From the NCBI RefSeq assembly GCF_033025475.1, contig NZ_CP130322.1, positions 2,361,001 to 2,425,000 on the forward strand: a stretch of DNA of 64,000 nucleotides. Reading direction: 5' to 3'. Both the position numbers and the translations under genes were made by a program. This document shows, piece by piece, positions 25,809 through 28,371 of the stretch; position 1 is the stretch's first letter; every line of letters begins with the position of its first letter. The notes under the pieces are model-generated. The model made no database searches and had not been told where the DNA came from. It worked only from the letters and a program-made list of their open reading frames with translations. This stretch comes from Sphingomonas sp. C3-2 (GTDB taxonomy: Bacteria > Pseudomonadota > Alphaproteobacteria > Sphingomonadales > Sphingomonadaceae).

Positions 25809-25847
25809 CTGCTGCGCGCATGTCCTTCAAGGACGCGCGCGCAGCAG
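25809..25847. terminator. Long bipartite hairpin at converging gene ends
   Basis: Perfect 11-bp outer stem (25809-25819 with 25837-25847) and an inner 4-bp GTCC/GGAC stem. It spans the stop codon of the LysE-type gene and the end of the opposing small gene. No T run; probably limits read-through in both directions. Confidence 0.5.
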
Positions 25848-26453
25848 CGCAAAGCCAAATCCCATGAAGATGATAGCCGTTAGCCGGTTGAACGCGCGGT
25901 TGAGGCCGGGCCGCGCCAAGAGCGGCGCGATACGGCGCCCGCCCAGCGCATAGACGCCGTACCAGAACATTTCGGTGGTGAGGAAGGTGACCACGAGGAT
26001 CGCGAATTGCGGTGCCTCGGGTGCGGCGCGGTCGATGAATTGCGGCAGGAAGGCGCTGGCGAAAAGTAGCAGCTTCGGATTGCTCAGGCCGATGAACAGC
26101 CCGCCGCGAAAAAGCTGTGCGGGCGATAGCGTCGGGCCAAGCGTGTCCGTGCCGATATCGATGGGAGCATCATTTTCGCGCCACGCCTTGATGCCCAGAT
26201 AGACGAGATAGGCGACGCCCAGATAACGCAGGATATCGAACAGCACCGGAAACGCGAGGAGCAGCGCGGTGAGCCCCGCGGCAGAGGCGGCCAGCACGAT
26301 CATCATCGCGCTAAGGCATCCCGCCATCGCGGCGATGCTCCGGCGAAAGCCGAAATGAACGCTGCGCGTCATCACGTGCAGCATATTGGGGCCGGGCGTG
26401 CCGCAAAGCAGGAAGACGGCGGCAAAGAACAGCCACCAATTATGAAGCGTCAT
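25827..26453 (-). CDS. LysE/RhtB-family amino-acid exporter
   Basis: 208 aa with about six membrane helices. The family motif GTPGPNMLHVMTRSVHFGFR is near the N-terminus (about 18-37) and a second conserved GLSNPKLLLFASAFLPQF is mid-protein. Exports an amino acid or derivative; substrate unknown. Start ATG 26453 is chosen at the beginning of the first helix. Confidence 0.92.
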   Translation of the reverse strand: MTLHNWWLFFAAVFLLCGTPGPNMLHVMTRSVHFGFRRSIAAMAGCLSAMMIVLAASAAGLTALLLAFPVLFDILRYLGVAYLVYLGIKAWRENDAPIDIGTDTLGPTLSPAQLFRGGLFIGLSNPKLLLFASAFLPQFIDRAAPEAPQFAILVVTFLTTEMFWYGVYALGGRRIAPLLARPGLNRAFNRLTAIIFMGFGFALLRARP

Positions 26454-26579
26454 GACTTTGGCCTTGCGGCAGGAAGGGCAGGGGCATGCCGCCCGTCGCG
26501 GCACGCAGGCCTATCTTACTGTGCCCAGCAATCACCCTGCAATGGGGCGTCTTTCCAGCGGAGGACGCCGCAAGGGATT

Positions 26580-27725
26580 TTAGCTATGGGATTCGATGCT
26601 TTCGAAGCGGGCTTCGATGCGGTCCTGTGCTTCAAGAAGTTCGGCATTGGCCTCGAGAAACGGGCGCGGGTTCATCGCGCGGCCGTTGAGGCGCACTTCG
26701 AAATGGAGGTGCGGGCCGGTCGAGCGGCCGGTGCTGCCCATGCGTGCAATGTTCTGGCCGCGTTCGACTATCTGTCCAGGCTTCACGTTGAAGGCGGAAA
26801 GATGGCCGTAGCGCGTTTCGATGCCGTGGCCATGGTCGATCTTGACGAGATTGCCATAGCCCGATGCCTGCCCGGCAAAGGTGACGCGGCCTGCCGCCGA
26901 GGCCATGATCTGCTGGCCGGTGGGGCCGGCAATGTCCATGCCGGCATGCATGGCCGCGCGGCCGTTGAACGGGTCGGACCGATAGCCGAAGGTGCTGGTC
27001 AGCCGCATCGGCGCGGTGGGCGCGCCATTGGGAATGGCCAGCATGGCACGCTCCATCTGGTCAAGCCGCGTCAGCGACGCGGCCAACTGGGCGATATGCT
27101 TGCCGCCGCCCTGAACGGGGATGAAGGGGCCGCCCATGGCGGCGGGCGCCCGGCCGCGGGCAAAAACACGCGGGTTGATGCCATAGCCGCGCAACGCCTC
27201 TTCGGCTTCCTGCGTACGCAGCTTGGCCGCCGAGCTAAGCGTTTGGGTAAAGGCGATCTGGCGCTGCTCGATGCGGGCTAGCGGGTCGGCTTCGGGAATG
27301 GCGGGGCTGATCAACGCCGTCTTCTGCGTCTTGGGTGCCCGCGCGGCGGCGATCTCTTCCTTGCCGAAATAGCTTTCCATCATCTGGTCGAGCATATGCT
27401 GGCGCTGTTCGAGTTCGAACGCGACGCCGTTCACACTGTCTGTCCATGCCTTGGCGCGGTTCGCAGTCTTGCTGGCGGCGATCTGCTCGACATCGAGCGC
27501 GGCGCGGTCGCGCACCGTTTGCAGCTTGACGCCGATCATGAACGCGGTGAACGCCGCCCACAGCAAAAGCAGCAGCAAGGCGCCCGAAACCAGTTTCAGC
27601 TGGAGCCCGGTAGAAATGCGCAGGAAGCGCGTCTGCCCGCCCGAATGGACGTGAATCTCATGATCAGGGAAAAAGCGGGTGACGCGCGCGCTCAGCGCGT
27701 TCCAACCCGTTTGCAATCTGGACAC
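26580..27725 (-). CDS. Membrane-anchored M23 peptidoglycan endopeptidase
   Basis: 381 aa. One membrane helix (LVSGALLLLLLWAAFTAFMIGV, in two parts around residue 50), a long periplasmic linker with coiled-coil character, and a LytM domain with complete zinc ligands: HAGMD, and HLHFE near the end. It therefore should cut peptidoglycan cross-links, unlike the degenerate EnvC-type protein elsewhere in the window. I prefer GTG 27725 (VSRLQTGW); a TTG at 27779 is possible. The region upstream holds nine GANTC sites. Confidence 0.87.
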   Translation of the reverse strand: MSRLQTGWNALSARVTRFFPDHEIHVHSGGQTRFLRISTGLQLKLVSGALLLLLLWAAFTAFMIGVKLQTVRDRAALDVEQIAASKTANRAKAWTDSVNGVAFELEQRQHMLDQMMESYFGKEEIAAARAPKTQKTALISPAIPEADPLARIEQRQIAFTQTLSSAAKLRTQEAEEALRGYGINPRVFARGRAPAAMGGPFIPVQGGGKHIAQLAASLTRLDQMERAMLAIPNGAPTAPMRLTSTFGYRSDPFNGRAAMHAGMDIAGPTGQQIMASAAGRVTFAGQASGYGNLVKIDHGHGIETRYGHLSAFNVKPGQIVERGQNIARMGSTGRSTGPHLHFEVRLNGRAMNPRPFLEANAELLEAQDRIEARFESIESHS

Positions 27726-27785
27726 TTGAAAAGACCCGTGAATTTTTATGTTGCGGCGCACATAACAGGCTTGACGCAATGTTGC

Positions 27786-27932
27786 GATTCGGACTCAGGG
27801 AATCTGGTGACGAGTCGTTCGAGTCGCGGGATGAATTGCGGCGTCGGATGGGAACAAAACCGGTTCCATCCGTTACATATGTGTTCCGTTGCCTGTGAAT
27901 CCGCGATTCGGAATCCGGCTATCGATTCACAG
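27786..27932. promoter_or_regulatory. GANTC (CcrM-site) cluster with nested inverted repeats
   Basis: Nine GANTC sites in 143 bp: 27786, 27792, 27800, 27812, 27821, then 27897, 27905, 27911, 27924. The second group is symmetrical: CTGTGAATC (27893-27901) pairs with GATTCACAG (27924-27932), and inside it GATTC-G-GAATC (27905-27915). Between the groups is an imperfect repeat, GGATGG with bulge to CCATCC (about 27846-27871). The element fills the gap between the EVE gene and the M23 gene and lies 61-207 bp upstream of the M23 start. Chance expectation is below one site. No DnaA-box consensus is seen. Confidence 0.8.
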
Positions 27933-28334
27933 TCCCGCCATCTCCATCAATACTGCCCAATGTGCGTCTGATACGGGGACGACGGACAGGCGCGATTGGC
28001 GGATCATCGCGATATCGGCGAGGCGGGGTTCGGCCTTGATCGCCTTGAGGCTGACGGGGCGGGGCAGGGCGCGGACCGGCCTTACGCGCACCGCGACCCA
28101 ACGGCCGCTTTCATCGGTGCGGTCGGGTTCGGCCGGTGCCACGATCTCCATGATACCCACGGCTTCGAGGCCGATATTGCTGTGATAGAACAGCGCGAGG
28201 TCGCCGGGCTGCATCGCCTTGATATGGCCGGCGGCGGCGTTGTTGCGCACCCCGTCCCAATAGCCTTCGCCGTCGCGGACCAGATCGGCCCAGCCATAGG
28301 CATCGGGTTCGGATTTCATCAGCCAATATGCCAT
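27927..28334 (-). CDS. EVE-domain protein
   Basis: 135 aa, entirely one EVE domain (PUA-like fold): starts MAYWLMKSEPDAYGW and has the WDGVRNNAAAGHIKAM and DLALFYHSN motifs of the family. EVE proteins are thought to bind modified bases in DNA or RNA. Start ATG 28334. Its 3' end enters the GANTC cluster. The MFS gene lies 37 bp upstream on the same strand. Confidence 0.93.
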   Translation of the reverse strand: MAYWLMKSEPDAYGWADLVRDGEGYWDGVRNNAAAGHIKAMQPGDLALFYHSNIGLEAVGIMEIVAPAEPDRTDESGRWVAVRVRPVRALPRPVSLKAIKAEPRLADIAMIRQSRLSVVPVSDAHWAVLMEMAGL

Positions 28335-28371
28335 GCAAGCCTCCCTAAGCGCGGCCAAGGCGCATTCTGCC

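Follow-up and report, generated by a model that had tools for sequence, protein, structure and literature searches.

The window, the whole stretch of 64,000 nucleotides that was analysed, carries nine GANTC sites within 143 bp in the gap between two genes on the minus strand. Upstream lies a gene for an EVE-domain protein (27927..28340; Pfam PF01878, E 3.4e-44), and downstream a gene for an M23 (LytM-type) endopeptidase of LmdC-like character (26580..27725; Pfam PF01551, E 8.1e-38, run on 26580-27728), the probable start of which is the GTG at 27725. Referred to the minus strand, the sites form a proximal group of five (27786..27825; sites at 27786, 27792, 27800, 27812 and 27821) and a distal group of four (27897..27928; sites at 27897, 27905, 27911 and 27924), the last of which overlaps the stop codon of the EVE gene. 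All nine sites of the original prediction were found in their places at 27786-27928, as were the 9-bp arms CTGTGAATC and GATTCACAG (27893-27901 and 27924-27932) of the nested palindrome it had described in the second group.

GANTC is avoided in the window (75 observed against a mean of 288 in shuffles), so that the local expectation for the cluster is about 0.17 sites (Poisson, at the window's own GANTC rate) instead of the 0.6 put forward originally; the figure was lowered and the claimed enrichment is stronger than first stated. Nine of the 13 GANTC from all crude gaps of the window sit in the EVE–M23 gap. For the remaining genome, a sample of 864 kb of 3.53 Mb (~24%) was used, consisting of the window and 40 stretches of 20 kb, two of which had been picked to contain gcrA and ccrM; the stretch with ftsZ was sampled by chance. 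GANTC occurred in this sample at 1.29 per kb overall and at 1.75 per kb in crude gaps. The EVE–M23 gap ranked first for GANTC count among 416 crude gaps of at least 40 bp, based on crude gene calls; the ccrM gap scored only 4 in this ranking, as it was cut short by the crude gene call. When 150-bp segments were counted independently of gene calls, the ccrM promoter reached 10 sites, the M23 promoter 9 and the next place 5. In the ~24% examined, only the ccrM promoter is as dense, so that the check for equal density in many other gaps came out in favour of the original prediction.

The ccrM and ftsZ promoters are among the places in the 864-kb sample that carry comparable clusters. Upstream of ccrM, ten GANTC lie in 150 bp (L144:8832-8981; G000 C1 ~3099832-3099981), and five lie between an ftsA-like and an ftsZ-like gene of the window's own genome (L157:13436-13504; genes named by reading their proteins). 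Places with five GANTC per 150 bp were the ftsZ promoter and one more. Five GANTC in 150 bp were recorded at L129:19031-19099, with a tRNA-Ala gene nearby (L129:19225-19300, minus strand); no target gene was identified for this cluster.

Conservation of the array and its gene neighbourhood

Matches to the M23 query were obtained in 40 of 40 genomes, the window's own included, some of them being partial or paralogous. Upstream of the M23 match, at least four GANTC per 150 bp were present in 45 of 57 loci; of 1811 tiles from other parts of these loci, 2 reached that number. The array is thus conserved in relatives, a second check that came out in favour of the original prediction. The 57 loci were L037-L095, the best 59 of the 80 best matches in one scan, minus L071 and L081, which had too little upstream DNA; L096-L116 (partial matches, outgroups) were omitted from this count and from the set of 70 promoters treated below, and L071 was also omitted from the latter. 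Among loci of at least 9 kb, the array was strictly the densest spot in 47 of 53. In the whole-genome set, at least four GANTC per 150 bp were found upstream of the M23 gene in 12 of the 22 family members with a locus, the window's genome among them, and in 0 of 8 genomes outside the family. The 10 of 22 family genomes that have the locus and stay below four sites per 150 bp count against control by GcrA and CcrM, the reading developed below. Bactofilin-linked copies are found among these ten, for instance those of G009 (1 site), G011 (1), G012 (2) and G013 (1). At the G009 locus (C7:112057-114613), where the array is missing (1 site), a GcrA-family match adjoins the bactofilin–M23 pair.

A comparison set of 110 loci was used for gene order, three pairs of which come from the same genome. 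In a quick tree of the M23 proteins, which held 87 of these loci (duplicates and sequences of unsuitable length having been removed), the array-bearing rows fell into one 71-row clade (SH-aLRT 99), except L094 and L109. At least 17 changes of array state were counted on this tree, and gain and loss of the array therefore continue.

The array was carried by 62 of the 110 loci. EVE adjoined in only 6 of those 62, and was found next to M23 only in the window's own genus. Upstream neighbours elsewhere are presumably proA-like, nadD-like, GGDEF-EAL-like and methyltransferase-like genes (named by reading the proteins), and the array persists when the upstream gene differs among loci. A partnership with the EVE protein, as suggested earlier, is therefore unsupported and was rejected; judged by gene order, the array goes with the M23 gene, and EVE is an incidental neighbour. 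The idea of a chromosomal landmark is likewise unsupported, in view of the persistence of the array beside other upstream genes and of the absence of the 9-bp palindrome from all four other genus members compared, so that the palindrome exists in the window and lacks conservation. The GC skew of the 864-kb sample was too uneven for placing the origin.

On the other side of the M23 gene, a bactofilin gene was present downstream in 81 of the 110 loci, 55 of which carry the array. In relatives with a bactofilin above the family cut-off, its gene followed the M23 match directly in 31 of 31 cases, at ~20-80 bp from the M23 end, and the two genes probably form an operon there. Given this adjacency and the M23 domain, the enzyme of the window is classed as LmdC-like. 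No bactofilin match was obtained in the window's own genome at E 0.001, yet the array is kept, and the M23 gene itself may therefore be a target of the putative control. The stretch after the M23 gene (25827-26580) holds no bactofilin, though one was seen in that place in the four other members of the genus.

Architecture of the putative promoter and register of the sites

Between the proximal group and the M23 gene, a -10-like TGTTAT is located on the minus strand (27762..27767), represented in relatives by TGCTAG, TGCTAT and similar sequences. Exactly 23 bp before it starts the first GANTC of the proximal group (27786..27790, GAATCG on the minus strand), which takes the place of a -35 box. 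From the sequence we infer TGTTAT to be the -10 element and the region to be a promoter. The same distance of exactly 23 bp between the start of GANTC and TGNTA recurs in 48 of 70 promoters in addition to the window; the other frequent distances were 48 (30), 57 (16) and 38 (16), and the remaining listed ones did not exceed 7. With a relaxed -10, the 23-bp spacing was found in 59 of 70, versus 2-13 at other spacings from 12 to 34. The 22 of 70 promoters without the strict 23-bp register count against the GcrA/CcrM reading. A G follows the GANTC at -23 in 48 of 48 in-register promoters, and in 40 of these 48, as a raw count, a GANTC lies at a distance of over 100 bp upstream of TGNTA. The consensus begins roughly with TTCA-CGC, continues with GANTC at -57, -48 and -38 and with GATTCG at -23, and closes with TGCTAG. 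In the window, the proximal sites start 23, 29, 37, 49 and 58 bp upstream of TGTTAT, and those at 23, 37, 49 and 58 are within 1 bp of the recurrent positions -23, -38, -48 and -57 of the relatives; for the distal group, the distance to the -10 is 134-161 bp.

The housekeeping -10 of Caulobacter is GCTANAWC, which the array-associated -10 resembles. An extended GcrA/CcrM motif, YGAKTCG, has been published (PMC7987155), and the G after the site in the -35 position (48 of 48) fits it. The motif was matched by 160 of 315 array sites, compared with 282 of 1025 sites that form the background of these loci and 220 of 1011 in the genome sample; that only 4 of the 9 window sites match it counts against the GcrA/CcrM reading. 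GANTCG-N17-TG[CT]TA as a common promoter class of the genome was rejected, with 2 matches in 864 kb and 0-2 at other spacings.

The conserved sequence might mainly be the operator of another transcription factor that contains GANTC by chance (CGACTCG and TTCAYCGC blocks), with methylation being secondary or blocking the factor. Conservation outside GANTC, near -66, -62 and -41, would agree with this, and the site at -23 prefers T as its middle base (51 of 58); together with the TTCAYCGC-like block near -66, this preference means that another DNA-binding protein may act there. At the other registers, however, the middle base varies while GANTC is kept, with C 23, T 10 and A 1 at -48 (n = 34) and G 12, C 5 and T 1 at -38 (n = 18). 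As an unrelated operator would not require GANTC at several registers, an operator of this kind is considered unlikely.

Candidate control by CcrM methylation and GcrA

Within the family, a GcrA domain was found in 195 of 199 genomes and the RAMA domain of CcrM in 196 of 199 (194 over the cut-off), the window's genome being included in both cases. GcrA is a partner of sigma-70; it binds to methylated DNA and favours formation of the open complex (PMC7403470). At ctrA P1 in the half-methylated state, GcrA occupies a short segment that takes in the -35 region and the GAnTC there, and reporter promoters were crippled by 60-80% once all GAnTC sites were mutated (PMC3667746). The ftsZ promoter of Caulobacter is most active when fully methylated (PMC8116508). 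Caulobacter promoters with GANTC between -10 and -35 are activated at 40-60 min, and those with GANTC outside are low at that time (PMC4287350); the M23 array is placed at -35 and upstream of -35. Counting against the GcrA/CcrM reading, GANTC occurs within 50 bp at only 31% of the GcrA-enriched cell-cycle start sites of Caulobacter (PMC4287350).

We consider it likely that the LmdC-like M23 gene is driven by a sigma-70 promoter which has the array as its control region, which is under CcrM methylation and GcrA, and which is unusually many-sited; the M23 gene would then probably be timed by DNA replication and methylation. The site positions, the conservation, the fixed register and the presence of the GcrA and CcrM genes are computed data that support this reading, in which CcrM methylation, GcrA binding and the direction and timing of control at the M23 promoter are inferred. 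Of the original prediction, the methylation-timed promoter of GcrA/CcrM type was retained, on the strength of the conservation, the fixed register and both proteins being encoded, and its EVE, palindrome and landmark parts found no support.

In the mechanism proposed, CcrM would methylate the GANTC adenines late in the cell cycle, and sigma-70-bound GcrA would recognise methylated or half-methylated GANTC and recruit or open RNA polymerase at a promoter where a -10 is combined with GANTCG instead of a -35 box. The extra sites (~-38, -48, -57 and distal) would add binding or steepen the response, so that M23 output would follow the passage of the replication fork. A bolder version, which we regard as unlikely, would make the array a fork timer, in which methylated sites jointly give a steep switch or half-methylated DNA is read in a SeqA-like manner; a similar array would guard ccrM and the wall-cutting partner of bactofilin, and sphingomonad cell shape would be set by the methylation cycle.

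SeqA binds GATC clusters, and by analogy the array could be a locus for sensing hemimethylation or for sequestration, with a reader protein of its own and with M23 transcription as just one output. The many sites of the array would fit such a locus, given that of 96 cell-cycle start sites with GANTC in Caulobacter, 11 had more than one within 50 bp (PMC4287350; 50 bp only), as would the remoteness of the distal group from the -10 and the recurrence of distal sites in the in-register promoters. The fixed register to one promoter and the loyalty to one gene point to transcription instead, and we judge a sensing or sequestration locus very unlikely.

It is hardly credible that the distal group terminates the EVE transcript as an RNA hairpin, or belongs to a dispersed repeat, and that the cluster is mere by-catch, as the 9-bp arms and the EVE stop codon inside one of them might suggest, since the distal group folds no better than shuffles (z -0.64), the arms are absent from the four genus members, and the sole strong match in the genome is the locus itself, the other five matches having 14-24 bases and E 0.14 to 6. 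An intrinsic terminator of EVE was rejected on this z value and on the lack of a U run after the stem, a dispersed repeat on the lack of another strong copy, and an Rfam family on a single match with E 0.97, far below the cut-off.

If the GcrA/CcrM reading is true, a large family of bacteria would have its bactofilin/M23 wall-shaping module coupled to the methylation clock. The orthologous promoters, in which the register is fixed and the number of sites ranges from few to nine, form a natural series that could reveal the role of extra GANTC. Among the CC-licensed PMC papers listed, no published link of GANTC with peptidase M23, or of bactofilin with GcrA or CcrM, was found; in PMC5590869 the terms co-occur, but the passages on them draw no link.

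Comparison with known systems

The LmdC-BacA pairs of Hyphomonas neptunium and Rhodospirillum rubrum likewise consist of an M23 endopeptidase gene beside a bactofilin gene (PMC10945521), whereas the window's genome is without a bactofilin match at E 0.001; neither GcrA nor Sphingomonas is mentioned in the main text of that paper.

The ccrM promoter is similarly dense: four or more GANTC per 150 bp occur in 23 of the 24 family genomes compared, the window's genome among them, and in 6 of 6 from outside the family. Its layout differs: the 280 bp upstream of ccrM contain TTGAC in 30 of 30 cases, followed within 30 bp by GANTC in 29, whereas TTGAC occurs anywhere in 300 bp in just 15 of 70 M23 promoters. 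The GANTC spacings at ccrM peak near 10-11, 19-20, 29, 39 and 49, close to multiples of 10 bp, and those at M23 peak at 9-10, 15, 21, 25 and 34. Upstream of ftsZ, at least four GANTC per 150 bp were found in 4 of the 30 genomes compared, own included. The ctrA promoter of Sphingomonadales also bears GANTC, but their number per 300 bp is one to five (PMC8116508).

The GcrA/CcrM promoters of Caulobacter (ctrA P1, mipZ, podJ P2) share with the predicted M23 promoter the sigma-70 type, GANTC close to -35/-10 and the presence of GcrA and CcrM. Of the probes and promoters compared from PMC3667746 and PMC4287350, ctrA P1 has one site, mipZ two, CCNA_00697 three and podJ P2 one at -24. Compared with these one to three sites, the array upstream of the M23 gene comprises five in its proximal and four in its distal group, one of them in the -35 position.
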